Shown: piece after piece, positions 7,089 to 63,634 of the stretch
Numbering within the stretch: position 1 is the first letter of the stretch
Layout: each line of letters opens with the position of its first letter
Source of the DNA: Planctomycetota bacterium
GTDB taxonomy: Bacteria; Planctomycetota; Planctomycetia; Gemmatales; Gemmataceae
Assembly (NCBI GenBank): GCA_016177925.1
Contig: JACOUH010000278.1
Location: 1 to 64,000, forward strand
Reading direction: 5' to 3'
Length of the DNA stretch: 64,000 nt
Notes under the pieces: generated by a model
Databases searched by the model: none
Seen by the model: the letters and a program-made list of their open reading frames with translations, nothing else
What the model was told of the DNA's origin: nothing
Made by a program: the position numbers and the translations under genes

Positions 7089-7114
7089 GGCGAGCGGGGG
7101 GTGTCAGCCCCCTG
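7089..7114. repeat. Half copy of the GCGAGCGGGGGG palindrome family
   Basis: The sequence GGCGAGCGGGGGGTGT followed by CAGCCCCCTG matches one arm of the elements at 40980, 55824, 61565 and 63360; the opposite arm is missing. It abuts the outer edge of the attC-like site at 7123-7218, as if the cassette array had inserted beside or into this element. Confidence 0.6.
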
Positions 7115-19735: not shown

Positions 19736-20656
19736 CTACGCGCGGCGCCGGGGCACGGCCACGCGGGCCAAGTCCTCGGCCACGACAACATCGTCGTGGA
19801 TCGCGGATGCCTCCACGGCGAACGGTTCGAGCGACAGATAGCGCTGCGAGAAGTGCGTCAGGACGAGCCGACGCACGCCTCCCGCGCTGGCCAGTTGCGC
19901 CGCCTGTTCCGCCGTCATGTGGCAGTACACGTGGGCCTCCCGTGCCTCGCTGCTCAGGTAGGTCGACTCGCACACCAGCAGGTCGGCGCCCAAGGCCAGC
20001 CGGGAAGCCCCGGCACAGGGCCGCGTGTCCATCACAACGGCGAACGACTGGCCCGGCTTCGGCTCGCTCACCTCGTTAAGGGAGACCGTCCGGCCCTCGA
20101 CGGTGATCGTTCCTTGACGTATCAGCTCGCCGATCGCCGGGCCGCGCACGCCGGCGGCCTCCAGGCGTTCGGGAAGCATGCGGCGGCCGTCGTCTTCCTG
20201 CAGGCGGTAGCCGTAACAGTCGACACCGTGCTCCAGCGGGCAGGCGAACAGCCGCACGTCATCACGCCGCGTCACGGCGATCTCTCCTTCGCCCCGCACC
20301 GGCCGGGGCACGAGGGTGGCCCGGTCGTGGAAGATCGAGGCACGGCGCAGTCGCTCGAAGTAGACCTGCCCACTGGCCGGGTAGACGACCTCAACGGGGT
20401 GCGGCACGCCGTCGAGCGACAGCCGCTGGATGATGCCGGCCAGGCCGAGGCAGTGGTCGCCGTGAAAGTGCGTGATGGCGATGTGCGTGATCTGGCTGGC
20501 GCTGAGGCCGGCGAGCGTCATCTGCCGCTGCGTCCCCTCACCAGGGTCGAACAGGATGCCGAGGTCGTCCCACAGCAGCATCAGGGCATTGTGGCTGCGG
20601 CTGCGCGTCGGCACCTGACTCGCCGTGCCCAGAAAAACGACCTGCCGTGCGGACAT
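19736..20656 (-). CDS. rnz: Ribonuclease Z
   Basis: A 306-residue metallo-beta-lactamase-fold nuclease that trims the 3' ends of tRNA precursors. The zinc motif THFHGDHCLGL is at residues 63-73. Further metal ligands are in EHGVDCYGYR, the aspartate region VVMDTRPC and LTHFSQRY. Length and motif order match the short bacterial RNase Z. GAGGG precedes the ATG at 20656. It is divergent from the RHS gene and shares strand with metG. Confidence 0.94.
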   Translation of the reverse strand: MSARQVVFLGTASQVPTRSRSHNALMLLWDDLGILFDPGEGTQRQMTLAGLSASQITHIAITHFHGDHCLGLAGIIQRLSLDGVPHPVEVVYPASGQVYFERLRRASIFHDRATLVPRPVRGEGEIAVTRRDDVRLFACPLEHGVDCYGYRLQEDDGRRMLPERLEAAGVRGPAIGELIRQGTITVEGRTVSLNEVSEPKPGQSFAVVMDTRPCAGASRLALGADLLVCESTYLSSEAREAHVYCHMTAEQAAQLASAGGVRRLVLTHFSQRYLSLEPFAVEASAIHDDVVVAEDLARVAVPRRRA

Positions 20657-20735: not shown

Positions 20736-20761
20736 TGTCACACTTGTGCCGGTCGCCCGTA
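20736..20761 (+). promoter_or_regulatory. Putative ECF-type promoter 1 (RHS gene)
   Basis: TGTCACACTTGT, nine bases, then CCGTA. The spacing from TGTCACA to CGTA is identical to sites at 26083 and 29870. TGTCACA resembles the known ECF41 minus-35 element, and a CGT(A/C) minus-10 is typical of ECF sigma factors. The start codon lies 69 bases downstream. Confidence 0.65.
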
Positions 20762-20829
20762 GGGAAGGACGACAGGCCCGCGCGAGGAGTGGGGCTGTCT
20801 CGAGTGGCCTCGCATTCAGGAGATCCTAC

Positions 20830-23800
20830 ATGGCTTCATTCGCATGTCCCCGGTGCAAGTCGGGACTGCCGCTCTCCGAAGGGCAGGACGGCGCGCCGTG
20901 GAACTGCCCGGCGTGTGGGCAGCCTCTGCACATCCGCGCCGCGTCGGTGGATTCGCTCTTCCCCACGGACTCATTGACAAATTCCTTCCTCTTCGGTCCG
21001 GCATCCACGAGCCCGGGGGCCGCCCCTGTCCCATCGCCCCGCAAGGGACGGCGCAGGCTCGGCCTCAAGGTTGCTGCCGTCGCACTGCTGTCGGTCGTCC
21101 TGGGCATCGCTGGACTGTACTGGCTCGGACCGAAGCCGGCAGAGCAATCTGAGGAGACGGCCGCCGAGATCGGCGAACTGAACTGGAGTTTCGAGCACGA
21201 CGAGGCAGGCCGCACCACCCGCATCGCCGACCCCGCCGGCCGAACAACGACGATCCGGTATGAGACCGACAAGCAGGGCAAGGTCCGCCGGGAACTCAAG
21301 GACCTGCCCGACGGCACGCACGTCACGCGCGAGTTCGACCGCCGCGACCACCTGGCCCTGCTGAAGGACGCTCACGGCGTCGTGCGCTACGAGTACGACG
21401 GTTTCGGCCGCCTCTCTGGAGTCCGCCGCGACAACGCCCCCGCCATCACCTACGGCTACGACACGCGCGACCGCCTCACCTCCGTCAGCGTGGGCACCGA
21501 GTGGACCGTCGCCTATGGCTACGACTTCCAGGGGCGCGTGGCCCGGATTGACACCCCTGTTGGCCGTGTCTCCTACGCCTACGAGACCAGCAGCAGCGGC
21601 GGCCGCGTGGTGGTCCGCCGGTTGCCCAACGGCGTCCGGACGACCTGGCAGTACCAGCTCAACGGCCTGCTGGGGTCGATCGACCACGCCAGCCCCGACG
21701 GCCAGGTCGTGGCCCGCTTCGCCCACACCTACCGGCCCGACGGGCTGATTGCCAGGGTCAAGGAGCGGACAGCGCAGGGCGAACGGACCCTTAGCTACGA
21801 GTACGACACGGTCCAGCGGCTGGCCTCCGTCACCGACTCGAAGAAGGGCACGATCCGCTACCGCTACGACCCGTTCGGCAACCGCATCGAAGTGACCCGG
21901 ACGGACGGGGAGCCAGTCGCGAGCAGCCACGATTGGGCCGGCCGCCTGATGCAGCACAACGGCCACGCCTGCCGCCACGACGAGGCCGGCAACCTGACCG
22001 AGTACGCCGGCACCAGTGGCCAGGTCGTTGTCAGCCACACCGCCACGGGACAGGTGAGCACGGTCCGGACAGACCGAGGCAGCGTCCGCTACGAGTACGA
22101 CGGCGATGGCAATCTCGTCGTGCGGGCGTCGGGAAAGGGCACGACCTCCTTCCTGCCTGACCCGCTGGCCGAGGCCTGGCGTCCGCTGCTGGCGGCCGGC
22201 GCCGACGGTGAAAAGACATTCTACCTCTGGGATGGCGAGTCGACGCTGGCGGCCGTAACCGGCGGCGAGGTGCGCTTCTTCCTGCCGGACCATCAAGACT
22301 CTGTCGCCTGCGTGGTGGACAGGGGCGGCAACGTGACGGAGCGGCCGGCCTACGGCCCCTTTGGCGAGCTGCAACGGGCGTCCCGAGGGGAAGGACTGCG
22401 GCCCGGTTTCGCCGGCCTGTTCTACGACCCGCAGGCGGGCCTGTACCTGACCCGGGCGCGAGCCTATGACCCGGCCCTGGGGCGATTCCTGCAGCGCGAC
22501 CCGGAGCACCGGGTTCCCGTGGACGACCAGGAGGACCTGTCGGCGTACAGCTATTGTGCGAACAACCCCGTCAACTGGGTCGACCCGGTCGGGGCGGCGA
22601 AGCAGAAGTCGGGCTCGAGCGGAAACCTGCCCTGGCAGCGCTTCGAGAAGGAAACCGTCGGCGAAGGGCAGACGGTCGTTCGCGGCGGTGGCGTGGAGTA
22701 CAAGAGTGACGGTCGCCCCTCGGCCGGGACCTTCTTCGACGCCAAGCACGTCGGCAATCCGTTAACAAGCCCCTACTTGTCCAGCAGCAACTGTAACCCA
22801 AAAGAACGGGCCAAGGTCGAGCAGCGAACCAACGACCTGTTCGACCGGGCGGCGAAGATCGTCAGGGACCCCAAATCCGGCTACCACTGGTATGAGGTCA
22901 TCACCAACCACCCGGACGCGAAAGCCGACTTCGAGCGGAAGCTGAAGGAGCGAGGCATCCTGGGCACGCACAGTTCGGTCCACCTGGTCGACCGAAATCG
23001 GCGCGGCCCGGATAACCCTCCGCCAGCGAGGAACATCGGCGGCCAGGGGCCTCCTTCGGGAGGCGGGGGTTCCGGCCCCCGCCGGGGGAGCGGTTCTGGC
23101 GGCGGTGGCAGCAACCCGCAAACGCCGCAGAAAGTCGGTGGCGTCTCGCTCAGGGGTGCCGGCGACGCGCTGAAAACCCTTGGCGCCCTCAAGGGTGTCG
23201 CCCTCGACGCCAACGGCAGGGTCGTCCTGCTGTCCGATGACAAGGGCGACATCGGCCTGCCGCCCTTGCGGCTGGATGACGTCGTGACCATTTTCCGCAG
23301 CGTCTACCTACACGGTCAGGCCCCGTTCGTCTCGATCGACCCGGACCCGAAGGACACCCGCGGGCCGATCCACACCGTCCGCCACGACAGCGAGACGGCC
23401 GACACCTACGTCGGCTGGGTCCTCTTCGAGGCGGACCGCGTCATGAAGTCCTACAACGTGGGCCTCGACACCGTCACCAGGCGGCCGATCCGCTCGCGCG
23501 TACACGGCTACAAGGACAAGATCGAACTGAGTTTCGAGTTCTGGGACGGGCAGGAAGAGAAGGACTCACAGTATCGCAACTGGATTGTTCCCTCCCGGGC
23601 GGTCCGCTCACGCGGCGACGGCGGCCGCCTGACGCTGCTCGACCTGGAGCTGCAGGTCCGGACGGAGCGAACGACCGTCCGCGACGGCAAACTCGTCGAT
23701 GCGCCGGAACTGGGCCGCGGCAAAGACTCCCTGGCGTTCGTCGAGTGGTTCACGAAGAATTACGAGGAGATCGCCGCCGAGGTCTCCCTGCTGCCGCCGT

Positions 23801-25935
23801 CCGAGAGCGGGATCACGAAGCCCGTCGCGGTGTTCAAGGAACTCCAGCGCTTCGCCCTGGTCACGGCCGTCGCCGAGAACCTGCGCGACAGCGGCATCCC
23901 CCTACCCACCTGGATGATCGACTACCCGGTCCGGCCCTGTCCGGTCCCGAAGACCACGCCCGCGGCCAGCCGGACGGAGACGCGCGAGGTGGGAGGCACG
24001 TCCCACAAACTCAGCATCTGGGGCGGCGCCGAGCTGTCGCCGCCACCCGCCAGGCTGACAACCGTGGCGTCCGCGCCGGCCGCCGAGGCGCTGGCTCCGG
24101 CCGTGAGCCGAGCCGTCGCCGGGGTGCCGTCTTTCCAGCCAGTGCGATTCACGGGGGACGGCAAGGAGTACCAGGCGGTGGCCCTGCCCGGCGACACGCA
24201 GGCCGTCGGCGGCGTCCAGTTGGAGGAGGCCGACGTGGTTGTCCCCGTGCGAGCCGGCACAGACCTCCGCCTGACGCGGAGCTTCCGTTCCTTCCAGCGC
24301 CCGCTGGGCGTGTTCGGCCGGGGCTGGGCCCTGGATCTGCCCTCCCTGGTGATCATGAAGCGGCCGTACCAGGATAGGGACGGTAAGAACTGGGTGCGCG
24401 AGGTCTACCAGTTGACCAGCCCGCTGGGCACCTGGTCCGAGATCTTCACGGAGCGGAAATTCATCCCCGAGTGGAAGGGCGAATTCCTGGTGCCGCGCAG
24501 CTCGTCCGAGATGCTGGGCATCTACCACGATGCCAAGGAGAAGACGACCGTTCTGGCCTTCAACGACGACCGTCGCTGGCACTTCGACGCGGCGGGCCGC
24601 CTGGTCGCCATGAAGGAAGGCCCTTTCACCGTCGCCTATCACCGCGACGGGATCGGCTGCATCACCCAGATCGAGGGCCGCCACGGCAAGGAGTCGCTGG
24701 CTCGCCTCGACGTCGAGTACGACAGTCTGGATCGCATCGCCTCAGTTCGCGGCAGCAACGGCGCGTCCGCCCGCTACGGCTACGACGCGGCCGGCCGCCT
24801 GGAACGCGTCGACAGGCAGGATGGCAAGTGGGAGTATCGCTACCGTGATACTCTCGTGAGTGGGGTGCTCCACAACGACAAGCTGGTGCGCGAGATGGAG
24901 TACGGCCCCGGCGGACAGTTGGTGCGCGACACTCGGGACGGCAAGGCCGTTTCCTACCAACTCGCTTCGGGGCCCAGCGGTGTTCGCGTCAAGACCTCGG
25001 GGACGGACGGCAGCGAGGAGATGACCTACGACAACGCCTTGCGGCCGGTCCGCCAGGTTGGTGCCGACGGAAGCCGTACCGAGTGGCGCTACGATGCCAA
25101 GGGGAACACCGACATTACCCTGACACTCGCGGACGGTGAGACGATGAAGGGGCGCCGCTCCGGCGACGGCCGTCAGGAGACGTGGCAGATGCCGGAAGGC
25201 GGCAGTTACGAGATTCGCTATGACGCCCGCGGCCGGCCCGCCGAAGTACTCCGGGGCGGACAGAGGGCGGTGCGTCGGGAGTGGGACGCCAACGGCAGGC
25301 TTGTTGCGGTCTTCTCCGAGACCGAGGTCCTTCGGCCGCAGTACGACGCGAACGGCATGTTGACCAGCGTCGTGACCGCGCCGCCGGGGAGCACGGACGA
25401 CGCCAAGGTGTGGCAGCAGGTCTTCTTCGATGAGGAAGGCCGGCCGGTGAAGGTGACCGATCACACCGGCGCCTTCGAGGAAATCGTCTACGACCGCGCC
25501 GGCAAAGCCGTGGCGCTGGCGCCGAGCAAGAACAGCCAGGTGCGGATCAAGCACAATCGCGCGGGCCGCGTCGAGAGCGTGCAGACACCGTGGGGCCAGC
25601 GTGAGGCCAACACCTACGATCCTGCCAGCGGAGAGCTGCGCAAGACCGTCCTCACCCAGGGGACGTTCCGGACCGAGGTGGAGTACGAGCGTGGCCGGCC
25701 GGCGCGAGTGCGCCAGCTCGACGGCGGCGAGTTCCGCTTCGCCTATCACAGCAAGGGCGCCCGGGAAGGGCTGCTCCGCGAGGTTAGTTCGCCCAACGGC
25801 CTGGTGCTGGCCTATGAGTACGACGAGGGCAAACGTCTGACGTCCGTCACCTGTGGTCAGGCCTTCCGTCTGCGGTACTCATACGATGGCAAGGGCCGGC
25901 TCACCGGCATCAGCCAGCTGCCCATCCGCCAGTAA
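20830..25935 (+). CDS. Giant RHS/YD-repeat membrane protein with internal core and nuclease-like segment
   Basis: A 1,701-residue protein starting at ATG 20830 behind AGGAGATC. Order: zinc ribbon with C6, C9, C26 and C29; one membrane helix at about 78-98; a first YD-repeat block (about 120-470; YEYDGFGRLSGV, YGYDFQGRV); an RHS core at about 480-592 (DHQDSVACVVDRGGNV, YGPFGELQRA, GLYLTRARAYDP). Next comes a segment of about 590-725 with VEYKSDGRPSAGTFFDAKHV, which looks like a restriction-endonuclease-fold toxin. A glycine-rich linker and a planctomycete-type domain (770-890, VGWVLFEADRVMKSYNVGLD) follow. A DUF6531-like start near 1120 leads a second YD block to the end. RHS shells normally carry the toxin at the extreme C-terminus, so having the core in the middle is unusual. 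N-in anchoring with an extracytoplasmic body is inferred. Confidence 0.85.
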   Translation: MASFACPRCKSGLPLSEGQDGAPWNCPACGQPLHIRAASVDSLFPTDSLTNSFLFGPASTSPGAAPVPSPRKGRRRLGLKVAAVALLSVVLGIAGLYWLGPKPAEQSEETAAEIGELNWSFEHDEAGRTTRIADPAGRTTTIRYETDKQGKVRRELKDLPDGTHVTREFDRRDHLALLKDAHGVVRYEYDGFGRLSGVRRDNAPAITYGYDTRDRLTSVSVGTEWTVAYGYDFQGRVARIDTPVGRVSYAYETSSSGGRVVVRRLPNGVRTTWQYQLNGLLGSIDHASPDGQVVARFAHTYRPDGLIARVKERTAQGERTLSYEYDTVQRLASVTDSKKGTIRYRYDPFGNRIEVTRTDGEPVASSHDWAGRLMQHNGHACRHDEAGNLTEYAGTSGQVVVSHTATGQVSTVRTDRGSVRYEYDGDGNLVVRASGKGTTSFLPDPLAEAWRPLLAAGADGEKTFYLWDGESTLAAVTGGEVRFFLPDHQDSVACVVDRGGNVTERPAYGPFGELQRASRGEGLRPGFAGLFYDPQAGLYLTRARAYDPALGRFLQRDPEHRVPVDDQEDLSAYSYCANNPVNWVDPVGAAKQKSGSSGNLPWQRFEKETVGEGQTVVRGGGVEYKSDGRPSAGTFFDAKHVGNPLTSPYLSSSNCNPKERAKVEQRTNDLFDRAAKIVRDPKSGYHWYEVITNHPDAKADFERKLKERGILGTHSSVHLVDRNRRGPDNPPPARNIGGQGPPSGGGGSGPRRGSGSGGGGSNPQTPQKVGGVSLRGAGDALKTLGALKGVALDANGRVVLLSDDKGDIGLPPLRLDDVVTIFRSVYLHGQAPFVSIDPDPKDTRGPIHTVRHDSETADTYVGWVLFEADRVMKSYNVGLDTVTRRPIRSRVHGYKDKIELSFEFWDGQEEKDSQYRNWIVPSRAVRSRGDGGRLTLLDLELQVRTERTTVRDGKLVDAPELGRGKDSLAFVEWFTKNYEEIAAEVSLLPPSESGITKPVAVFKELQRFALVTAVAENLRDSGIPLPTWMIDYPVRPCPVPKTTPAASRTETREVGGTSHKLSIWGGAELSPPPARLTTVASAPAAEALAPAVSRAVAGVPSFQPVRFTGDGKEYQAVALPGDTQAVGGVQLEEADVVVPVRAGTDLRLTRSFRSFQRPLGVFGRGWALDLPSLVIMKRPYQDRDGKNWVREVYQLTSPLGTWSEIFTERKFIPEWKGEFLVPRSSSEMLGIYHDAKEKTTVLAFNDDRRWHFDAAGRLVAMKEGPFTVAYHRDGIGCITQIEGRHGKESLARLDVEYDSLDRIASVRGSNGASARYGYDAAGRLERVDRQDGKWEYRYRDTLVSGVLHNDKLVREMEYGPGGQLVRDTRDGKAVSYQLASGPSGVRVKTSGTDGSEEMTYDNALRPVRQVGADGSRTEWRYDAKGNTDITLTLADGETMKGRRSGDGRQETWQMPEGGSYEIRYDARGRPAEVLRGGQRAVRREWDANGRLVAVFSETEVLRPQYDANGMLTSVVTAPPGSTDDAKVWQQVFFDEEGRPVKVTDHTGAFEEIVYDRAGKAVALAPSKNSQVRIKHNRAGRVESVQTPWGQREANTYDPASGELRKTVLTQGTFRTEVEYERGRPARVRQLDGGEFRFAYHSKGAREGLLREVSSPNGLVLAYEYDEGKRLTSVTCGQAFRLRYSYDGKGRLTGISQLPIRQ

Positions 25936-25945
25936 CGTCCAAGTT

Positions 25946-25999
25946 TTAGCCCGACGCGCCAGCGAGGTTGACGTGTTCCTCGCTGGCGCGTCGGGCTAA
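25946..25999. repeat. Perfect 22-base-arm palindrome after the RHS gene
   Basis: Arms run 25946-25967 and 25978-25999 (TTAGCCCGACGCGCCAGCGA and complement) around a ten-base loop. It starts 11 bases after the RHS stop codon and could act as a terminator, though no T-run follows. Confidence 0.8.
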
Positions 26000-26007
26000 G
26001 CCGCGAG

Positions 26008-26042
26008 CCTCGGGCGAGCGCGACGCCCGCGCTCGCCCGAGG
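26008..26042. repeat. Second palindrome in tandem, 15-base arms
   Basis: Arms CCTCGGGCGAGCGCG and CGCGCTCGCCCGAGG flank a short loop. Outer bases AGCC and GGCT extend the pairing with mismatches. Together with the preceding element it makes a two-palindrome tandem between the RHS and DUF58 genes. A TATAAT at 26059-26064 follows but has no good minus-35 partner. Confidence 0.7.
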
Positions 26043-26082
26043 TTCGTGGCTAAACGGATATAATTCATCCTTTTTACCTGCC

Positions 26083-26108
26083 TGTCACACTTGTCGGGGT
26101 CAGCCGTA
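26083..26108 (+). promoter_or_regulatory. Putative ECF-type promoter 2 (DUF58 gene)
   Basis: TGTCACACTTGT, nine bases, then CCGTA: the same motif and spacing as at 20736 and 29870. The first ATG of the DUF58 gene is 42 bases downstream. Confidence 0.65.
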
Positions 26109-26149
26109 TCGGAAGCAGAAGAGAACCTGCTTTCGACCTTACTGAACCA

Positions 26150-27350
26150 ATGAGACAACCGATGAGCGCACCTCCGCTTGTTGCACCTCCTCCCGCGGCA
26201 CAGCCTCCTCCGGCGGGGGCTGCTTCTCTTCCGCAGCTCCGCTTCGACAGACTGTGGCCGCGGCTGCGCGCGTGGGCCCGGCACGGTTGGCGCTGGGCCA
26301 GAGCGGCTGTGGGCTGGGTGCCCCTGACGCCCCTGGGGTTGCTGACCGTCGTGCTGCTCGTGTGGATGATGAGAACGTTCGGGATCGCTCGCAAGGACAT
26401 GGTCCTTCTGGCCGTCGCCCTGGGTGGCCTGGCGCTGGTCGGCGGCTCGGTGCTGTTCGTGGCCGCGACCGGCCTCTGGCTGAGGTTCGCAAGGGGCCCA
26501 CGCGGACAGGAGTGGCTGTCCCTCGAGGCGGGCTCGCCCTGCCGGACGGGCTACCTCCTGGGACGCATCACCTGGAACCCCCTGGTGAACGTCGGCCTGA
26601 CCTGGGAAACGCCGCCGGGCCTTTCCGTGCGGCTCGTTGCCACTTGGGAAGGCCTCGCCGAGGAAATCACGCCGTCGGAGCGAGCCCTGTGCGGCGACGT
26701 GGTGCGCCGCTTCACTCTCACCGACATCCTGGGTCTGGCAAGGTTGAGTTTCCGTCGCCGCGAGGCCCGGGAGGTCGAGATCCGGCCGGCGTGCGGGCGG
26801 GTGCCGGCGCTGCCGTTGCTGCCGCAGACGGTCGCCGGCGACGACAGGGAGGACCCCGAGCGAAGGGGATGAGGCGGCGGCCGGCATCGCTCGCACGGCC
26901 CTGGAGGCTGGCCTGCTCGGCACGGATTTTGTCTTCGCCGCCGGGGAGGGCTCACCGGCACGGTCGGGCCGCGAGGCGATCGACCAGGTTGTGCGTTCCG
27001 TCAACACCCGCGACCGCGCCGGCACCGGCCTCGAGGCGCTGCTGACCCACGGAGCGGGCGAGGGACTGAAAACCTGCATCCTGTTTGTACCGGGGGTGCC
27101 GGGCGCATGGCTGGATGACATCGTGTCGATCCTGGGTCGCCGGCCCGGGCCGTTCCGCGTGCTGATCGGCGTCGACGGCATCTCTTCCCATCCGCTCCGC
27201 CACTGGTTGCGCCGGCTGTTGCTGAAAGAGACGCAGGCTCCGGGCGCCCCGGCCGAGGGCGTGCGCCGCGTCTTCGAGGCACTGAGCCCGGTAGCTGCCG
27301 AGGTTTGGATGCTCGACCGATTCACCGGGGAGACGATCCTGCCCCAATGA
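26150..27350 (+). pseudogene. DUF58-family gene with frame break and apparent internal deletion
   Basis: The first part (26150-26872) encodes a proline-rich start, two membrane helices (LLTVVLLVWMMR, VALGGLALVGGSVLFVAA) and the start of a DUF58 domain (SPCRTGYLLGRITWNPL, VRRFTLTDILGLARLSFRR). It stops at 26870. Coding then resumes in another frame (DEAAAGIARTALEAGLLG) and runs to 27350, matching the C-terminal part of planctomycete DUF58 proteins. The central segment that normally carries the RxY-x2-GD and WK motifs is missing, so a deletion joined the two parts out of frame near 26850-26870. DUF58 proteins work with MoxR ATPases and transglutaminases, both of which follow here. The deletion is inferred from memory of the family; a sequencing error could explain only the frame change. 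Confidence 0.65.
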
Positions 27351-27423
27351 CTTCCGGTCACTTCCCGATTTCTTGCCCCTTACGGCTTTGCACACGCTTC
27401 CTGTATCACCAAGGAACCTGATC

Positions 27424-29847
27424 ATGCTCGGGAATAAACCGCCTGTGAAAGAGCCTGTGTATCTGCTGTTGTTGCGTCTCGTCGTGTACGGGCTGGCGGT
27501 ATCGCTGCTGGTCGGCCCGCTGGCCGGCAAGGCCGCCCTGGCTGGCGCCCTCGCTGGCGCCCTGGTCGGCCTGGTGCTGGCCCGACGGCTGGCGGTCTCG
27601 CGGCTGCGCTGGCCCGTCGTGGCCACCCTGGCACTGGGGAGCGTCTTGCTGGGGCTTGGCACCGAGGGCCTGCTCGGCGGGATCGACTGGCTGCCCCGCC
27701 TGCTCGGCACCCGCTGGGTGCTGCGGCTCCTCGATGTGCTCACCTTGGGTCTGGTGACGCTGGGCACCGTCCTCGGCGTGCGCAGCCTCGCCGCTCGGGT
27801 GCCTCTGCTGGCGATCCTTGAGGCGGCGGCGGTGGTCGGCGTGGTCGTCTACCTGGTGGGCGGACACCGGGATGGACAGATCCAGCAGCCGATGGCACTG
27901 GCGGACTGGGCATGGGCCAACGGCCACAACCCGCTGCACGTCCACCTTGGCATCGGTCTGCTCACCCTGGCCGCCGTCACCCTCCTGCTGGCGTGCGAAC
28001 AGAAGAAACGTCGGGCCCTGGCCGCCGTGCCCGTGCTCTGGCTGTTCGCCCTGCTTGGGTTCCTGGTCCTCCAGCGTCTCGTCCCGTCGGCACAGGACCA
28101 GGCACCCAGCCTGGTCGCGCAGGACAACCTGGGGCAAGATACGCCCCCGGACGATCCAGGGCAGCCCGAGCCTCAGCCACAGCCCAGGCCTCAGCCGAAA
28201 CCGGAACCGAAGCCGCAACCAGGCCCGGGACCCATCCCGCCGCCTCCGCCCCCGCCCCCACCGCAGCCGAAACCTCAGCCACAGCCCAAGCCCAAACCTC
28301 AGCCGCAGCCCAAGCCTGAGCCGAAACCGGAACCGAAGCCGCAGCCGGGCCCGGGACCCATACCGCCGCCTCCACCGCCTCCGCCCCCGCCGCCACCGCC
28401 CCCGCCATCGGACCCGCAGCTCGACCCCGGCCCGCGGCCGCCCTGGCCGGCCCAGCCGCGGCCCATGGCGATCGTCCTCCTGCACAAGGACCACGATCCC
28501 ATCGAACAGCTCTTCTACTTCCGCGAGCAGGCTTATAGCCAGTTCAAGGACGGCCGGCTCGTCCTGGCCAAGCGCAACGACGTCGACACCGACATCCTCC
28601 ACGGTCTGCCCGAAGAATACTTTGAGCTGCCGAGTGTCGAGGAGGCGATCGAACTGGCTACGGTGCGGACGACCGTGGCCCTGATCGCCAAGCACCGCAA
28701 CGCCTTCGGGTTGGTGAATCCGTCCAGCCTGGAGCCGTGCGACAACCCCAACCCGCAGGCATTCCAGGCGGCCTACCGGGTGACCTCGAAGGCCCTGACA
28801 GCACTGCGCCGCGACGGTGGCTGGGTCGTGCCCCACGAGGCCCTCGCTGCCTGCCAGGCCGGCGACCCGTCCTGGTCGGAGGCGGTCCGCCGCCACTACC
28901 TGGCCTGCCCGGACGATCCGCGCTACCGTAAGCTCGCCGAGGAGATCCTCGTCTCGCTCGCCGGCAAGAAGGCAGGCAAGGGGCCGCGCTACACGCAGTC
29001 GCCGTACCTGCGCGCTCTCACCGTGCGGCGCTGGATCGAGGAGAACGTCACCTACGCGCTGAGCGCGGACCACTCGAAGCCGGCGGACGTGGCGGCGTCC
29101 GTGCTGTTCGGCAGCCGACGCGGCCACTGCGTCCACGTTGGCTATGCGATGGCCTATCTGCTGCGCACCCAGGGAATCCCCTGCCGCGTCGCCTCGGGCT
29201 ACGCCTACGAGGGGGGAAGCCGCGGCAACGGCTCGGCCCTGCTGCTGCTCGACACACACCTGCACGCCTGGTGCGAGATCTACCTGGAGGGGGTCGGCTG
29301 GGTCGTGATCGACGCCGCCCTGAAGAAGTCCGAGAATCCCCCTCCGCCGGCCGTCGACCTGGACCTGCAGCGCCTGTATGGAGAGCTGGCGCGCGGCAAC
29401 AACCCCGACGGGTCCGAGCGAACGGACGCCAAGCGGAGCCTGCTTGCTCGCCTGCTGTTCTGGGCGGTGACGCTGACGGTGTTCTTGCTGGCGGGACTGT
29501 ACGCGGTCAAGGCGTGGCGGCGGCTGGGCCCGCGGTTCGCCCCGGCCGGCTGGCTGTACCGCGTTGGCTACCGGGCGGCTTTGGACCAACTCGCCGAGGT
29601 CGGCTTGCTGCGCGGCTTCGGTGAAACCCGTGAGGAGTTCGCCCAGCGCCTGGTCGGCCTGACCCCGTGCTTCCCGGCCCTCACCGCGGCGCACATGCGC
29701 CAGGCGGTCGGCGGGGCCGAGACATTCAGCCGGCGGCAGTGGCTGGAATTGCTCATTCGGCTTGATGAGGCACTGGCCGGGATGTTCCCTCTCTGGCGTC
29801 GCTGGCTCGGCCGTCTCAACCCCGTCAGCTGGCTCAGCGCTCGCTGA
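27424..29847 (+). CDS. Transglutaminase-like membrane protein with proline-rich linker
   Basis: An 807-residue protein starting at ATG 27424 behind AAGGA. The N-terminal 230 residues hold about six membrane helices. Residues about 240-345 are a low-complexity Q/E/K-P linker with two long proline runs. The transglutaminase-like core follows with the Cys-His-Asp triad: RRGHCVHVGYA near 568, DTHLHAWCEIYLEG near 610 and GWVVIDA near 629. A further membrane helix (LLFWAVTLTVFLLAGLYAV) and a DUF4129-like tail (RGFGETREEFAQRL) end the protein. The core probably faces the periplasm and acts in peptide crosslinking or proteolysis. It follows the DUF58 gene and precedes MoxR, a classic gene set. Confidence 0.88.
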   Translation: MLGNKPPVKEPVYLLLLRLVVYGLAVSLLVGPLAGKAALAGALAGALVGLVLARRLAVSRLRWPVVATLALGSVLLGLGTEGLLGGIDWLPRLLGTRWVLRLLDVLTLGLVTLGTVLGVRSLAARVPLLAILEAAAVVGVVVYLVGGHRDGQIQQPMALADWAWANGHNPLHVHLGIGLLTLAAVTLLLACEQKKRRALAAVPVLWLFALLGFLVLQRLVPSAQDQAPSLVAQDNLGQDTPPDDPGQPEPQPQPRPQPKPEPKPQPGPGPIPPPPPPPPPQPKPQPQPKPKPQPQPKPEPKPEPKPQPGPGPIPPPPPPPPPPPPPPPSDPQLDPGPRPPWPAQPRPMAIVLLHKDHDPIEQLFYFREQAYSQFKDGRLVLAKRNDVDTDILHGLPEEYFELPSVEEAIELATVRTTVALIAKHRNAFGLVNPSSLEPCDNPNPQAFQAAYRVTSKALTALRRDGGWVVPHEALAACQAGDPSWSEAVRRHYLACPDDPRYRKLAEEILVSLAGKKAGKGPRYTQSPYLRALTVRRWIEENVTYALSADHSKPADVAASVLFGSRRGHCVHVGYAMAYLLRTQGIPCRVASGYAYEGGSRGNGSALLLLDTHLHAWCEIYLEGVGWVVIDAALKKSENPPPPAVDLDLQRLYGELARGNNPDGSERTDAKRSLLARLLFWAVTLTVFLLAGLYAVKAWRRLGPRFAPAGWLYRVGYRAALDQLAEVGLLRGFGETREEFAQRLVGLTPCFPALTAAHMRQAVGGAETFSRRQWLELLIRLDEALAGMFPLWRRWLGRLNPVSWLSAR

Positions 29848-29869
29848 CGGGCCTGCGAGAGGATGCCTC

Positions 29870-29895
29870 CGTCACACTTGTTCCTTTGCCCCGTA
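29870..29895 (+). promoter_or_regulatory. Putative ECF-type promoter 3 (MoxR gene)
   Basis: CGTCACACTTGT, nine bases, then CCGTA; only the first base differs from the sites at 20736 and 26083. The MoxR ATG is 71 bases downstream, about the same distance as at the RHS gene. Confidence 0.65.
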
Positions 29896-29965: not shown

Positions 29966-31018
29966 ATGAACGCCACCCTGAATCCTCTCCCCTCGAACAA
30001 CGGCAACCGGCCCCCCGCCGCCCCGGGTGGCTTCCCTCCCATGCAGACCCTCGATGATGTTCGTACCCTGGGAAGCGCCCTCGGCGGCCGCCTGCGCGCC
30101 GCTGTCCAGGGCCGCGACGATACCATCCGCCTGGTCCTGATCGCCCTCTTCGCTGACGGCCACGTCCTGCTCGAAGATCACCCCGGCTCGGGGAAGACAA
30201 CCCTGGCCAACGCCCTGGGCAGCAGCCTTGTCCGCCCCGCCGGCATGACGCGCGTCGCCGCCTACCGCCGCATCCAGTTCACGCCGGACAAGCTCCCCTC
30301 CGATCTGACCGGCGTGACGATGTTCGACACCGCCAAGAACAGCCTCGCCTTCAACCCGGGGCCGCTGTTCGCTAACATCGTCCTGGCCGACGAGATCAAC
30401 CGTACCCCGCCCAAGGTGCAGGCCGCCCTCCTCGAAGCCATGGCCGAGAAACAGGTCACGGTCGACAACCAGACGCATCCCCTCGAACCGCTTTTCTTCG
30501 TCATCGCCACCCAGAACCCCTTTGACCAGATGGGCACCTACCCGCTGCCGCGGGCCCAGCTCGACCGCTTCCTGTTCAAGATCAAGATGACCTACCTGTC
30601 GCGCGACAACGAGCTGGACGTGCTGCACCGGCGACACCTCGTCAAGTCGCCGCTCCCGCCGCTGGCAGTCGCCCCGGCAACCATCGTCGCCGCCCGCTTC
30701 CTCATTCAGCGCGCCGTCCGCGTGGCGCCCGCTGTGCTGGAGTGCCTGGTCGACATCGCGCAGGCGACGCGCCAGCACCCTCGCATCGCCCAGGGCATCT
30801 CGACGCGCTCGCTGGTCCTGGCGGTGCCGGCGCTGCAGACGCGGGCCGCCCTGCACAACCGCGATTATGTCTCGCCCGACGACGTCAAGGCCCTGGCGGT
30901 TCCCCTCTTTGCCCATCGCCTGGAATTGGCCGCCGGGGCGCGGGACGCCGTCCCGATCGTGATGGAGTGCGTCATGCCGGCCGTCGAGGCCACCAACCGC
31001 AAGACCCTGGCAGCGTGA
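29966..31018 (+). CDS. MoxR-family AAA+ ATPase
   Basis: A 350-residue soluble ATPase. Walker A is EDHPGSGKTTLA near residue 75, Walker B is IVLADEINRTPP near 145, sensor 1 is FFVIATQNPFDQ, and PRAQLDRFLFKI carries the arginine finger region. The C-terminal lid domain is present. MoxR proteins act as chaperones that mature partners, commonly with DUF58 and von Willebrand or transglutaminase proteins, as here. The ribosome site is weak. It sits 118 bases after the transglutaminase gene and carries its own predicted promoter. Confidence 0.93.
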   Translation: MNATLNPLPSNNGNRPPAAPGGFPPMQTLDDVRTLGSALGGRLRAAVQGRDDTIRLVLIALFADGHVLLEDHPGSGKTTLANALGSSLVRPAGMTRVAAYRRIQFTPDKLPSDLTGVTMFDTAKNSLAFNPGPLFANIVLADEINRTPPKVQAALLEAMAEKQVTVDNQTHPLEPLFFVIATQNPFDQMGTYPLPRAQLDRFLFKIKMTYLSRDNELDVLHRRHLVKSPLPPLAVAPATIVAARFLIQRAVRVAPAVLECLVDIAQATRQHPRIAQGISTRSLVLAVPALQTRAALHNRDYVSPDDVKALAVPLFAHRLELAAGARDAVPIVMECVMPAVEATNRKTLAA

Positions 31019-31060: not shown

Positions 31061-33169
31061 ATGACGCTCTCGAAGCGAACCCGACTTGTGGCCGGGCTGG
31101 TGCTGGCCACCCTGCTGTCGAGCGGGGCAGTCGCCGCCCTGGTGATCCGCGCCTGTCTGCAGAACAACGAGTATCCCGATCCGCCTTTTGTGCCGGTCGG
31201 CAGGGACTTCCCGCGCCTTATCCCGCTGTCGGAGAGGCCCAACCACGAGGACGGCGAGGCGCTCGAGCGCTACCGGGCGGAGCGGAGGAAGATTGCCCGC
31301 TGGTTCAAGGAGCACGGAGCCTATGCGCGGGCGACGCCGGAGGAGAAGAAGGCCCTCGATGCCAACACGGAGGGCCGTTACATCGAGGCCCGCGAGCTGG
31401 CCGAGAAGGTCCTTGCTGAGTCCCCCGAGTCCGTGCCCGCCCTGTACGTCCTGGCGAACGCCCTGGCCGAGGCCGAGGGCAATCTGCCGCAGGCGCTACA
31501 CCGCATCCGCACCGCGCGGCACCTCCTGGAGGCACGGGGGCGGGCCGACTCCGAGGACGCCGACGCCCGTGAATGGTACATCCGCAGCCTGTGGCAAGAG
31601 AGCTACATCCTCCACTTGATGGACCTCCGGGCCGAGGAACTGCGGGCCGTCGAGGTCCTTGAAAAGGTCTACGGCGAGGAACTGCCCTGGATGAAGTCCT
31701 TCGCCCTGCTCAAGCTCGAGCGGTTCGACGAGGCACGTGAGGCGATGGAACGCACCGCCCAGACCGGCCGCTGGGTTCGCCGAGCGCTGAACGATCGCAT
31801 CCTCTATGCGTGGTATCAGAGCGACCGGGGCGAGATGTACCGGATCAGCAAGGAATGTGCCGAGCACAAGGCCGCCTCGGCGCTGATCTGGAACAACTTC
31901 TCCGGGAGCTGTCTGTCGGACTTCCGCTTCGACGAGGCGGATAAGGCCCTTGAGAAGTGCCTGTCCTTCAAGCATCGCGATTTTGTCCGCAGTCCCTACA
32001 TCTGGAGGTCCACCACCCACCTGGCTCGTGGCCGCCTCTCCGAAGCCTGGGATGCCCTCAACAAGGCCGACGCCGAGCGCAAGAAACGTGAGCAGAGCAC
32101 GCTCGAGCAGGACCGGGCCGAGATGGCCAACGCTGTCGCGGCGTTCCTGCTGGTGCTGGGCAACTCCGCCGAGGCCGAGGCGCGAGCCCGGCAGGCCTGG
32201 GAGCGCCCCGATCGCAACGGCTCCTCGACCGACAAGAAGGAGTATGCCACCTTCGCCAGCGGCATCCTGCTGTGGACCGCCCTGCACAACCGGGTCGAGG
32301 AACTGCACGAGAACGGCGAGTCGGGGGGCCTGCTGGCGTCCCGCGAGCAGAAGCGCCTCGAGCTGGAGGCCTGGACGGTCCGCCGTTCGCTGCTGAGCCT
32401 GCTCGACGACGAAACGTTCCTCAACCATGCCCTGCGCCCCTACTTGCCCGAGAGCCCCACGACAGAGTCCTGGCTGCTGGGCACGATGGTGCAGCTGCTG
32501 CCCCCGGGCGTCGCGGCGGAGGCCGTGCGCCAGGCGCGTGCCGCAGAGGACCACCCCAAGGCCGTGCCCTACTTCGACGCGCTGGAGGCGGAGCTGGCCC
32601 TGCGGCGGGGCCGTGCCGCACAGGCTCTCGAGCTGGCCCGGCAAGCTCTCGACGGGTTGCCCGCCGCCGAGCGGCTGCTGCGCGGGCGGGTCGCCGCCAT
32701 CGCCGCCGAGGCCGCCCGGCAGCAGGGACAGGCGGACGACTGCAAGGCTCACTGGGCCCAGGCCCTGGCCGATTTTCCTGCCGCCGCTCGACTGCTGCAG
32801 ATCGCGATCCCCGTGCAAATGGAGGACGACGGCAGTCCGCTGGCCCGGGAGCTGGCGCGACAGCTGCTGCGCTCCCCGCGCTTCCGCGCCGACCCCGCGG
32901 GGCTCCGCGTGGTTCTGAAGGGCGGCGACGGCCGGCTCGTCTTCGAGCTGTTCCGTAACGATCAGGCGATTCATTGCTCCGGCAGCGTGCCGGGCAACGG
33001 CGAGGATGAGGAGGTCGTGGGCGCTGCCCTGAAGCTCGCCCACGAGAAACTGATGTCGCCTTCGTTCAGTCTGACGCCGATTCAACTCAACCGTCTGGGC
33101 AGCACCTCGGCCGGCTCCAAGGCCAGCGAGGACGCCGAAGAGGTTCTGAAAAAAGTCCGGGGTGACTGA
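31061..33169 (+). CDS. Membrane-anchored TPR-like protein
   Basis: A 702-residue protein with one N-terminal membrane helix (LVAGLVLATLLSSGAVAALVI) that acts as anchor or signal. From about residue 90 it is almost entirely helical with TPR-like pairs: GRYIEARELAEKVLAESPES, FDEADKALEKCLSF, GRAAQALELARQAL. The last 90 residues look like a small mixed domain (LRVVLKGGDGRLVFELF). The bulk probably lies outside the cytoplasm and binds proteins. GAGGAGATGAG precedes the ATG. It lies 42 bases after MoxR and 19 bases before the beta-helix gene, so the three are likely one transcript. Confidence 0.8.
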   Translation: MTLSKRTRLVAGLVLATLLSSGAVAALVIRACLQNNEYPDPPFVPVGRDFPRLIPLSERPNHEDGEALERYRAERRKIARWFKEHGAYARATPEEKKALDANTEGRYIEARELAEKVLAESPESVPALYVLANALAEAEGNLPQALHRIRTARHLLEARGRADSEDADAREWYIRSLWQESYILHLMDLRAEELRAVEVLEKVYGEELPWMKSFALLKLERFDEAREAMERTAQTGRWVRRALNDRILYAWYQSDRGEMYRISKECAEHKAASALIWNNFSGSCLSDFRFDEADKALEKCLSFKHRDFVRSPYIWRSTTHLARGRLSEAWDALNKADAERKKREQSTLEQDRAEMANAVAAFLLVLGNSAEAEARARQAWERPDRNGSSTDKKEYATFASGILLWTALHNRVEELHENGESGGLLASREQKRLELEAWTVRRSLLSLLDDETFLNHALRPYLPESPTTESWLLGTMVQLLPPGVAAEAVRQARAAEDHPKAVPYFDALEAELALRRGRAAQALELARQALDGLPAAERLLRGRVAAIAAEAARQQGQADDCKAHWAQALADFPAAARLLQIAIPVQMEDDGSPLARELARQLLRSPRFRADPAGLRVVLKGGDGRLVFELFRNDQAIHCSGSVPGNGEDEEVVGAALKLAHEKLMSPSFSLTPIQLNRLGSTSAGSKASEDAEEVLKKVRGD

Positions 33170-33188
33170 CATCCCAAGGAGTGTACGC

Positions 33189-34904
33189 ATGGTCCACGAG
33201 AGATCGCAACTCCCTGCCGAGCCCTTCCGCTCGCCCGAATTCCTGCGTGAGGACGGTGGGCTCGATCTGTCCCCCGATCAGTACGCCGGGCTGCTCGACA
33301 GCGACCGTCCCCGAGCCGCCCCGACGACGTCTGAGTTGTGGGCGGAGGAGACGTCGCCTGAGCGCCCGCGGCCCGGGCGCAGACTCCTGCTTGCGGTCGC
33401 GGTAGCTGGCCTGGTGCTTGTCCTGCTCGGGATGGCGGCACTGCGGCTCTGGCGGCCGTGGCAGAGAGCAGGCGAACCGTCCACCGCAGACGGAGCGAGG
33501 ACCGCGAAGGCCAGTCAGGTCGGCCCATCCGAAGTCGTCGTCTCGCGCAACAAGGACGGCCAGTACGCCACCCTCGCCGAGGCCGTCCGCAACGCTTCAC
33601 CCGGCACGCGCATCCGCGTCAAGCCCGGTCGCTACCAGGGGGGCGTGGCCCTGGATCGGAAGGTCGAAATCGTCGCCGACGGTCCGCCCGGCGCGATCGT
33701 TCTCGAGAGCATTGGCTACGCCTGTGTCGACATGCAGACGGACGAGGCAGTCGTGCGCGGCCTGACCCTGAAGACCCACGGCGGGGCGATCAGCAAGGAC
33801 TTCGCCACCGTCCGGGTCGCCCGGGGACGGCTGGTCCTGGAGGACTGCGACATCACCTCCGATGCTCATGTCTGCGTCTCGGTTTCCGGCGAAGCGACCG
33901 ATGTCATCGTCCGTGGCTGCACGATCCATGACGGCCAGGTCGGTGTGTTCTTCTTCGCCGGTGCAACGGGCTGGCTGGAGGATTGCGATCTTTACGGACA
34001 GTCTCTCTCTGGGATAACCATCCGTGGGGGCAGCACGCCGGTCGTGCGCTGGTGCCATCTCCACGATTGCCGTTCGTTCGGGGTGGACGTCTTCGACAAG
34101 GGCGCAGGAGAGTTCGAGCACTGCACGCTCTACGCCAACGCTGGCGCGGGGGTGCAGCTGAGCGGAGGGGCGAGCACGGTCTTTCGCCATTGCGAGATCA
34201 GCCTCGGCAACGACTATGGTGTCCTCGTGACGCGCGAGGGCGATGGGACGCTGCTGTACTGCGATCTGAGTGCCAACGTCAAGGCGGGGGTGGTGATCCG
34301 CGACGGCAGTACCCCGCTCCTGGAGGGGTGCGAGATCGCCGGCAATCGGGAGAACGGTGTGCTCGTTTTCGCCAGGGGCAAGGGCGAGTTGGACGGGTGC
34401 CTCATCTCCGGGAACACGTCTGCCAGCGTGGTGGTCCACACGCAGGGCGACCCGAAGCTGAGGAATTGTCAGATCCGCAATGGGAAGAATGCGGGGATCT
34501 ACGTCAATGCAGGGGGCAGGGGGCAGTTCGAGGGCTGCACGGTCTCGGGGCACGCGATCGCGGAGGTGGCGGTCCAGTCTGGCGGCGATCCCGTCCTGCG
34601 CAACTGCACCCTGCAGAACGACAGGCGGCAGGGACTACTGGTCCTGGCGAAGGGGCGGGGGAGTCTCGTCGGCTGCCGCATCGTGGACAATGCGCAGGAG
34701 GGCGTGCTCCTTCAGAAGGCGGACGGTCCGAGTCTGAAGAGCTGCCGGGTCAGTCGCAACGGCAAGGCCGGGGTGTGGGCGGAGGACGGCAGCCGGGCGA
34801 CAGTGGAGGACTGCGACCTGAAGGACAACACGGGAGGCCCCGGCCGGGTCGGGGCCGGCTGCACGGTCACGGAGTCGGGCAACATGCCGCCCCTGGCGAG
34901 ATGA
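33189..34904 (+). CDS. Membrane-anchored right-handed parallel beta-helix protein
   Basis: A 571-residue protein. ATG 33189 has AAGGAG at good spacing; an earlier in-frame start would overlap the previous gene. A cytoplasmic N-terminus of about 65 residues precedes one membrane helix (LLLAVAVAGLVLVLLGMAAL). From about residue 115 the protein is a right-handed beta-helix of the NosD/pectate-lyase-like type: roughly 18 coils with repeats such as LEDCDIT, VVRGCTIHDG, LEGCEIAGNRENGV and LRNCQIRNGKNAGI. The opening SEVVVSRNKDGQYATLAEAV is typical of such domains. It may bind polysaccharide or protein outside the membrane. No catalytic site is recognised. Confidence 0.85.
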   Translation: MVHERSQLPAEPFRSPEFLREDGGLDLSPDQYAGLLDSDRPRAAPTTSELWAEETSPERPRPGRRLLLAVAVAGLVLVLLGMAALRLWRPWQRAGEPSTADGARTAKASQVGPSEVVVSRNKDGQYATLAEAVRNASPGTRIRVKPGRYQGGVALDRKVEIVADGPPGAIVLESIGYACVDMQTDEAVVRGLTLKTHGGAISKDFATVRVARGRLVLEDCDITSDAHVCVSVSGEATDVIVRGCTIHDGQVGVFFFAGATGWLEDCDLYGQSLSGITIRGGSTPVVRWCHLHDCRSFGVDVFDKGAGEFEHCTLYANAGAGVQLSGGASTVFRHCEISLGNDYGVLVTREGDGTLLYCDLSANVKAGVVIRDGSTPLLEGCEIAGNRENGVLVFARGKGELDGCLISGNTSASVVVHTQGDPKLRNCQIRNGKNAGIYVNAGGRGQFEGCTVSGHAIAEVAVQSGGDPVLRNCTLQNDRRQGLLVLAKGRGSLVGCRIVDNAQEGVLLQKADGPSLKSCRVSRNGKAGVWAEDGSRATVEDCDLKDNTGGPGRVGAGCTVTESGNMPPLAR

Positions 34905-35196: not shown

Positions 35197-35225
35197 TTGA
35201 GCACCTTTCGGGGAGGAAGTATGAT
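35197..35225 (+). promoter_or_regulatory. Sigma-70-like promoter of the sigma factor gene
   Basis: TTGAGC, a 17-base spacer, then TATGAT matches the housekeeping consensus at nine of twelve positions. The start codon follows 45 bases downstream. It does not contain the GTCACACTTGT motif, so autoregulation through that motif is not indicated. Confidence 0.5.
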
Positions 35226-35270: not shown

Positions 35271-36110
35271 ATGAATGGGCCGGATGTGAGAGAGACCTTG
35301 TCGCGGATCAAGACGCAGTGGACGCTGCTGGGGGAGGCGCACGAGGGTAAGGGAGATGAGGCCCGCAAGATCCTGCACCAGCAACTATTGCGCTACTACG
35401 GCGCCGTCTATCGCTACCTGCTCGGCGTGGTGTGCGATGTGGCCGTGGCGGAGGACCTCACCCAGGACTTCGCCGTCCGTTTCCTGCGCGGCGACTTCAA
35501 GGGGGCGCGCCGCAATTTCGAGGGCGGTCACCGTCCTGGTGCTTCGTTTCGCAACTACCTGCGGACCGCTCTCCGCAACCTGGCACGCGACTACTGGGAT
35601 CGGCAGAAGCAGCGGGACAAGGAGGGAGGGCCTTTACCGGCCGACGACCGAGGGCCGGCCGCGGACTGGGACCGGATCTTCGACGACAGCTGCCGCGACG
35701 ACGTGCTCGACCAGGCGTATCAGGCGCTGGCACGGGAGGAGCAGGAGTCCTGGCTGAAGTTGGAGCGGCAGGACGATGTCTGCAAGGCGTACCAGGCGCT
35801 GGCACGGGAGGAGCAGGAGTCTGGCACCCTCTACTACACCGTGCTCAACCTCAAGACCCGGCAGCCAGAGTTAACAGCGCCACAGATGGCGGAAAGGCTC
35901 GCTCGGCAACTCGGCAGGCCCTTCAACGCCGCTGCCATCCGGAAGACGCTGCAGCGAGCCCGGGACAGGTTTGCGGAGCTGCTCCTTGACGAGCTGAGCA
36001 GGAGGCTGGGGACGTCCGAGCTGGACGATCTCGAACAGGAGTTGAGCGATCTGAACTTGCTTGTTTGCTGCCAGCCGGCCCTGCACCGCCGCCGGGCTGC
36101 CTCGTCCTAG
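35271..36110 (+). CDS. ECF-like RNA polymerase sigma factor, atypical region 4
   Basis: A 279-residue protein starting at ATG 35271 behind GAGGAGGG. Residues 20-110 match sigma region 2: YYGAVYRYLLGVVCDVAVAE, DLTQDFAVRFL, FRNYLRTALRNLARDYWDR. Region 4 is unusual: instead of the common LP-x-REV helix it reads YYTVLNLKTRQPELTAPQMA, AAAIRKTLQRARDRFAELL, as in several planctomycete sigma factors. Between the regions is an in-frame 24-residue tandem duplication (YQALAREEQES twice). No anti-sigma gene is adjacent. It is the only sigma gene in the window and the obvious candidate reader of the three GTCACACTTGT sites upstream. Its 3' end overlaps the convergent LRR gene by four bases. Confidence 0.85.
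   Translation: MNGPDVRETLSRIKTQWTLLGEAHEGKGDEARKILHQQLLRYYGAVYRYLLGVVCDVAVAEDLTQDFAVRFLRGDFKGARRNFEGGHRPGASFRNYLRTALRNLARDYWDRQKQRDKEGGPLPADDRGPAADWDRIFDDSCRDDVLDQAYQALAREEQESWLKLERQDDVCKAYQALAREEQESGTLYYTVLNLKTRQPELTAPQMAERLARQLGRPFNAAAIRKTLQRARDRFAELLLDELSRRLGTSELDDLEQELSDLNLLVCCQPALHRRRAASS
35713..35822 (+). repeat. 72-base-period tandem duplication inside the sigma factor gene
   Basis: The segment AGGCGTATCAGGCGCTGGCA and the 18 bases after it (to 35750) recur 72 bases later (from 35785) with only two or three differences. The near identity at DNA level points to a recent event that inserted 24 codons between sigma regions 2 and 4. Confidence 0.85.
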
Positions 36111-40979: not shown

Positions 40980-41045
40980 GGCGAGCGGGGGGTGTGAACC
41001 CCCCGGTACTTTGACGGACCGGGGGGTTCACACCCCCCGCTCGCC
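40980..41045. repeat. Palindrome of the GGCGAGCGGGGGG family, copy 1
   Basis: Perfect 28-base arms at 40980-41007 and 41018-41045 around a ten-base loop (ACTTTGACGG). Each arm contains a mini-hairpin, GGGGGGT-GTGA-ACCCCCC-like. Copies with identical arms and different loops are at 61565 and 63360; variants are at 7089 and 55824. It lies inside the exporter operon. Confidence 0.92.
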
Positions 41046-55605: not shown

Positions 55606-55841
55606 TGTCCGAACCGATTGTCATCCGTTGTAGGGAGAACGGCCCGTACGTGCTCGAGGGCCCGGTCAAGGTGGTCGACCACCTTGGCAATGCGTTCACG
55701 ATTCCGGCGGGGAAAAACAACGTGGCGCTGTGCCGCTGCGGACACTCGAAGAACCGCCCGTTCTGCGATGGCTCGCACCGCGACTGCGGCTTCCAGGCCG
55801 CCGAAGTTGCGCCCGCCGACGTTGGCGAGCGGGGGGCGTGA
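55605..55841 (+). CDS. CDGSH iron-sulfur domain protein
   Basis: A 78-residue protein. The motif CRCGHSKNRPFCDGSHRD at about residues 45-62 gives the 3Cys-1His ligands of a [2Fe-2S] CDGSH cluster. The preceding part (IVIRCRENGPYVLEGPVKVV) matches bacterial single-CDGSH proteins. These carry redox or iron-sulfur transfer functions. Its last residues (GERGA) are encoded by the left arm of the repeat at 55824, so the repeat supplied the C-terminus. Coupled to the lipoprotein gene. Confidence 0.92.
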   Translation: MSEPIVIRCRENGPYVLEGPVKVVDHLGNAFTIPAGKNNVALCRCGHSKNRPFCDGSHRDCGFQAAEVAPADVGERGA

Positions 55842-55991
55842 GCCCCCTGGTTAGAGCGTTTTGCAGTCGGCCGTAGCACATAGCACAGGCGTCTCGCCTG
55901 TGCCGAACCGCGACAGCGCACAGGCGAGACGCCTGTGCTACGAGCAAATGCAAACCGCTCTAATCAGGGGGGCTCACGCCCCCCGCTCGCC
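55824..55991. repeat. Three-level nested palindrome
   Basis: Outer arms GGCGAGCGGGGGGCGTGAGC and complement (to 55991) belong to the GGCGAGCGGGGGG family. Inside are arms TTAGAGCGTTTTGCA and TGCAAACCGCTCTAA with one mismatch. Innermost are perfect 23-base arms at 55881-55903 and 55918-55940, each containing the mini-hairpin GCACAGGCG-TCT-CGCCTGTGC. The whole occupies the gap between the CDGSH and FHA genes. Confidence 0.92.
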
Positions 55992-61564: not shown

Positions 61565-61630
61565 GGCGAGCGGGGGGTGTGAACCCCCCGGTGGACGCAG
61601 TTACCGGGGGGTTCACACCCCCCGCTCGCC
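61565..61630. repeat. Palindrome of the GGCGAGCGGGGGG family, copy 2
   Basis: Perfect 28-base arms (61565-61592, 61603-61630), identical to those at 40980 and 63360, around the loop GGACGCAGTT. It lies between two minus-strand genes. Confidence 0.92.
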
Positions 61631-63219: not shown

Positions 63220-63634
63220 CAGATGCTTCCTCCCACGATGACGGTGCGGTACTCGGGCGGCTGGAAGGGCTAACGTACCATTTTAGAGATCCGGCCGCCA
63301 CAGGCCGGCCGAAAAACTGCACGTGCGGCCTCGCCTGCGCGGCAGCCCCTCCTGTTTTTGGCGAGCGGGGGGTGTGAACCCCCCGGTACTTCGACTCACC
63401 GGGGGGTTCACACCCCCCGCTCGCCAAAAAAAGTTAGTTGCTTTTTCCGGCGGATCGAGTACAACCCCTTTCACTCCTCTTGGGCTCCGGACCGGGCGGA
63501 ATCTTCAGGCATGACGCGAACGAGGGCGACGAACAAGAGAATCCGCGCCGATACCGCCCTTTCCGGTTGACGAAGGGGGGGTAGGGGAGTATTCTAACCG
63601 TTGGACTGTTGTTGCTCTGTCCCGAGTATCTGTC
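63220..63634. other. Divergent spacer with one palindrome
   Basis: No gene is seen in this 415-base stretch. It holds the palindrome at 63360-63425. Short open frames here are translations of the repeat (GGVNPPV-type peptides) and are not genes. The promoter of the FHA gene should lie between 63426 and 63634. Confidence 0.5.
63360..63425. repeat. Palindrome of the GGCGAGCGGGGGG family, copy 3
   Basis: Perfect 28-base arms (63360-63387, 63398-63425), identical to those at 40980 and 61565, around the loop ACTTCGACTC. Flanked by runs of T and A (GTTTTTG on the left, AAAAAA on the right). Confidence 0.92.

Follow-up and report, generated by a model that had tools for sequence, protein, structure and literature searches.

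The locus described here raises the question of why one and the same two-part sequence stands before three neighbouring groups of genes, and by which factor it would be read. In the window, i.e. the whole stretch of 64,000 nucleotides that was analysed, a pattern scan for GTCACACTTGT-N9-CCGTA recovers exactly three exact copies, all on the plus strand and with identical spacing, at the positions originally predicted:

20737 to 20761, plus strand: motif copy 1, GTCACACTTGT-GCCGGTCGC-CCGTA, exact match, preceded by CT, 5' of the RHS gene
26084 to 26108, plus strand: motif copy 2, GTCACACTTGT-CGGGGTCAG-CCGTA, exact match, preceded by CT, 5' of the membrane-protein/transglutaminase unit
29871 to 29895, plus strand: motif copy 3, GTCACACTTGT-TCCTTTGCC-CCGTA, exact match, preceded by CC, 5' of the MoxR gene

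Counted from the last base of the motif to the start codon, the distances are 68 bases for copy 1 (to ATG 20830, in a gap between divergent genes), 41 bases for copy 2 (to ATG 26150) and 70 bases for copy 3 (to ATG 29966, in the 118-base intergenic gap that follows the transglutaminase gene). All three are thus intergenic and 41–70 bases 5' of the start codons of plus-strand genes, in agreement with the prediction. The impression, gained by eye, that the window holds no further copy proved correct even when up to three mismatches were allowed: the next best match agrees at 13/16 positions, graded weaker copies are absent from the window, and shuffled windows gave a mean of 0.26 matches at this threshold, with 0/100 shuffles reaching three.

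The same holds for the assembly that contains the window (7.35 Mb, 484 contigs, 83% complete), whose gene content points to a planctomycete. In the whole genome, at up to two mismatches, matches occur only at the three intergenic window sites 5' of genes, the reversed control pattern giving one match, and the bare 11-mer GTCACACTTGT has only three occurrences in 7.35 Mb, at the same three sites. All copies in the genome are confined to 9.2 kb, each before a start codon; simple arithmetic puts the chance that three sites out of ~14.7 million strand positions fall within 9.2 kb on one strand at about one in a million. The more general TGTCAC-N16-CGTA promoter class has one further match only in this genome. 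When the surroundings of ~35 other sigma-like loci were crudely screened for further repeated motifs of this locus-private kind, many sets came up, which among the matches listed are mostly coding repeats and interspersed hairpins. The three copies, exact, equally spaced, unique in the genome and set in the same orientation before three genes, are a real, locus-private cis-element. Their nine-base spacers agree in 1/9 columns and their flanks differ except for a C two bases 5' of the motif, which makes them unlike a recent duplication.

The genes that follow the three copies, and the hairpins that lie between the first gene and the second copy, are these:

20830 to 25935, plus strand: RHS/YD-repeat protein of 1701 aa (Pfam RHS_repeat, 4.7e-49; NCBIfam YD repeats and Rhs_assc_core)
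25946 to 26051, no strand assigned: two long hairpins (arms of 22 and 24 bp), 3' of the RHS gene and 5' of copy 2
26150 to 26872, plus strand: putative membrane protein, with a continuation in another frame at 26862-27350
27424 to 29847, plus strand: membrane transglutaminase with a DUF4129-like tail (Pfam Transglut_core, 1.3e-18; DUF4129 below cut-off)
29966 to 31018, plus strand: MoxR-type AAA ATPase (Pfam AAA_3, 1.2e-54)
31061 to 33169, plus strand: TPR protein (Pfam TPR matches)
33162 to 34904, plus strand: right-handed beta-helix protein (Pfam Beta_helix, 3.6e-56)

The names RHS, transglutaminase, MoxR, TPR and beta-helix, first given from the translations, are supported by the Pfam and NCBIfam matches, while the label "DUF58" for the gene at 26150 finds no support in Pfam, neither this segment nor its continuation frame having a match at E<=0.5. 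The frame of this gene breaks near 26862-26872, and its two segments lie in different frames of one strand, each with high third-position GC, which points to a frameshift, to decay of the gene or to an error of assembly. The RHS open reading frame can be extended upstream to a GTG at 20647, across motif copy 1; ATG 20830 is the likely start because it is preceded by an AGGAG ribosome-binding site and because the zinc-ribbon-like N-terminus begins there. In the same protein one membrane span is predicted by eye. Its Rhs-associated core extends to about residue 588, beyond which come ~500 residues with no Pfam match and then a second run of YD repeats, an arrangement unlike the usual C-terminal tip. 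The hairpins at 25946-26051 are a likely terminator, and since they part the RHS gene from copy 2, the latter probably begins an independent unit. The first of the two hairpins, at 25946-25999, belongs to an interspersed repeat with many copies in the genome, the arm CCCGACGCGCCAGCGAGG recurring at L083, L092, L107, L117, L123 and elsewhere. A second interspersed, REP-like hairpin element, GGCGAGCGGGGGGTGT, has nine occurrences in the window at up to one mismatch, most of them arranged in inverted pairs that measure ~66 bases between their outer ends (7089-7104, 40980-41045, 55824-55991, 61565-61630 and 63360-63425). A reading of the block as a defence system was also tried and set aside, PADLOC giving a weak TRIP13 match to the MoxR protein only.

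As to the function of the element, an identical signal before three neighbouring units and nowhere else in the genome suggests that the units are probably switched on together by one specialised factor. It is considered rather probable that all three copies serve as promoters for a single alternative sigma factor, of ECF type, with a small regulon confined to the locus. In its geometry TGTCACA-N15-CGTA agrees with ECF sigma promoters, and in its –35 with ECF41, and the divergence of the spacers, with both halves and their distance fixed, is what would be expected of contact by a two-domain sigma factor. Within this scheme an extended –35 element would be contained in CYGTCACACTTGT, the –10 element would be CCGTA, and the expected start of transcription would lie ~8–9 bases after the C of CGTA; counted from this C, 3/3 copies have G as the seventh base and purines as the eighth and ninth, as would suit such a start. 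The regulon would consist of the RHS unit, the membrane-protein/transglutaminase unit and the MoxR-TPR-beta-helix unit. To judge from the sequence, the element is probably a promoter and not an operator, its reader is probably a sigma factor, and the units are probably expressed together. The prediction of one regulon finds support in position, orientation, spacing, uniqueness and diverged spacers; the reader that was proposed for it, the sigma factor at 35271, is not supported.

The resemblance to ECF41 promoters, also part of the original prediction, is upheld at the level of the sequence. The ECF41 signature is TGTCACA-n16+/-1-CGTC (PMC3426412); its –35 is exact in copies 1 and 2 and reads CGTCACA in copy 3, the spacing of 15 fits 16+/-1, and its –10, CGTC, is absent, with CGTA in 3/3 copies. 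The genome has 37 matches to the SigX4/ECF41 model TIGR02957, none over the cut-off and all ending by model position 170/281, and no ECF41-type sigma was found in this 83%-complete genome. This last result counts against promoters of an ECF sigma factor, as do the invariant left half of 11 bases (against 7 in the –35 of ECF41), the absence of graded copies and the absence of conservation. A more specific form of the proposal, offered tentatively as a rather unlikely refinement, is a fast-evolving, locus-private promoter class: a single sigma factor whose –35 specificity extends over 11 bases would serve this island only, and would join the RHS/YD-repeat protein and the MoxR-transglutaminase machine in one functional system.

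Conservation is indeed the weak point of the regulon reading, as the motif is not conserved. In the 95 genomes of the family, at up to one mismatch, it has 4 non-self matches vs 5 for the reversed control, so that there is no enrichment over control among the 94 other members, and the relaxed exact pattern TGTCACACNNGT-N9-CCGTA shows no excess in 398 genomes of the class (~300 of them beyond the family). A scan of 84,980 species, in which close relatives of the window's own record may be missing, gave ten single, scattered matches where ~30 are expected by uniform-base arithmetic, none of them in a record labelled as a planctomycete. Copies with one mismatch, both preceded by CT, are intergenic in two family genomes, L004 (G004:C28) and L007 (G093:C374), the former ~700 bases before an ECF sigma gene and the latter with the ATG of a PKD/fn3 protein ~64 bases downstream; they are placed like promoters, but two such copies are not above chance. 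The TPR and transglutaminase proteins have one family relative each at the thresholds used, both in genome G088, where transglutaminase, MoxR and TPR follow one another in the same order (L013, G088:C13, 1968-6698; 42%, 66% and 40% identity). This order was found in only one other of the 95 family genomes, which belongs to another genus, and suggests a rare, possibly transferred module; the motif is absent from the G088 contig that carries the set.

The main rival to promoters of an alternative sigma factor is a binding site for a transcription factor, activator or repressor, acting on ordinary promoters of the three units. An invariant half of 11 bases suits a DNA-binding protein better than a –35 of 7 bases, the left half includes a small dyad, ACA-CT-TGT, and a promoter of its own could be fitted in between each copy and its start codon; a TATAAT is located upstream of copy 2. 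However, the motif as a whole is neither a palindrome nor a direct repeat, no DNA-binding regulator gene was recognised within the block, and no sigma-70-like promoter was found beside the copies on the coding strand, nor one common to them. A transcription-factor site is thus considered possible, though doubtful.

A special case of the sigma reading is that the motif is read by the product of the sigma gene in the window, as the original prediction held:

35271 to 36110, plus strand: ECF-type sigma factor, candidate reader (Sigma70_r2; TIGR02937)

No other sigma gene lies closer: the distance to copy 3, on the same strand, is 5.4 kb, and local ECF regulons are common. On the other hand, only sigma region 2 and TIGR02937 are seen in the protein, with no ECF41 C-terminal domain or SnoaL-like extension, and the 37 TIGR02957 matches of the genome do not include it; it belongs to an ECF family other than ECF41. 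The copy of the motif that autoregulation would require is absent upstream of the gene, and there is none upstream of the homologues examined; the gene has a sigma-70-like promoter match at 35197-35225. Homologues are present in 29/95 family genomes, its own included, and the two genomes with the closest ones, G050 and G029, have no motif at one mismatch. Since dozens of other sigma-like matches were found in the genome, what links this gene to the motif is its proximity, and the proposal is not supported: taken over all readings it is unlikely, and if a sigma factor is granted as the reader, this neighbour is a possible but doubtful choice, with dozens of others also candidates. No solved structure matching the protein was found. 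At 35700-35821, between the two conserved regions, its gene has a stretch of 72 bases duplicated in tandem and in frame (AYQALAREEQES twice).

A third explanation is that the motif acts in RNA, as part of a leader bound by a protein or a small RNA. The copies are close 5' of three start codons, and the TATAAT upstream would put copy 2 within a leader; no Rfam family was matched at the family cut-off, though, and the three leaders have no fold in common, nor is their stability out of the ordinary (z -0.5 to -1.5), which leaves this very unlikely. Chance repetition, or a duplication relic with no function, might be suspected from the 244 plain 11-mers that are repeated three times in the window and from the lack of conservation in relatives, but it is hardly credible for a full gapped pattern (11-mer, fixed gap and 5-mer) of which no triple arose in 60 second-order Markov windows, whose copies all lie in 9.2 kb and before start codons, and whose spacers and flanks differ. 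With an ECF geometry, no sigma-70-like promoter found alongside, no Rfam family at its cut-off and leaders that fold differently, promoters of an alternative sigma factor are the best reading of the three copies.

If this is true, a very large RHS/YD-repeat protein and the transglutaminase-MoxR-TPR-beta-helix set form one system, and the motif would at once serve as a reporter by which one of the many ECF sigmas of the genome could be paired with its promoter. The literature searched yielded no promoter mapped for an ECF sigma from a planctomycete, and no target promoters of groups of the ECF59, ECF61 and ECF62 type.

Three known systems invite comparison. The first are kinase-associated ECF sigma factors of planctomycetes, with ECF59, ECF61 and ECF62 among their groups, which PMC8999054 lists as phosphorylation-regulated. 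The sigma factor at 35271 is homologous to ECF-type sigmas that adjoin Ser/Thr kinase genes in the two relatives checked, whereas no such neighbour was found for 35271 itself; the likeness is one of homology. ECF41 promoters are approached in the –35 TGTCACA (2/3 copies), in a –10 of the form CGTN and in the spacing of 15, and are departed from in CGTA instead of CGTC, in a conserved CTTGT after the –35, and in targets that are not COE genes adjoining an ECF41 sigma gene. As in MoxR-DUF58-transglutaminase clusters, finally, the MoxR ATPase is preceded by two membrane proteins, one of them a transglutaminase; in contrast to those clusters, DUF58 is not detectable by Pfam, and the set is enlarged by a TPR and a beta-helix gene.
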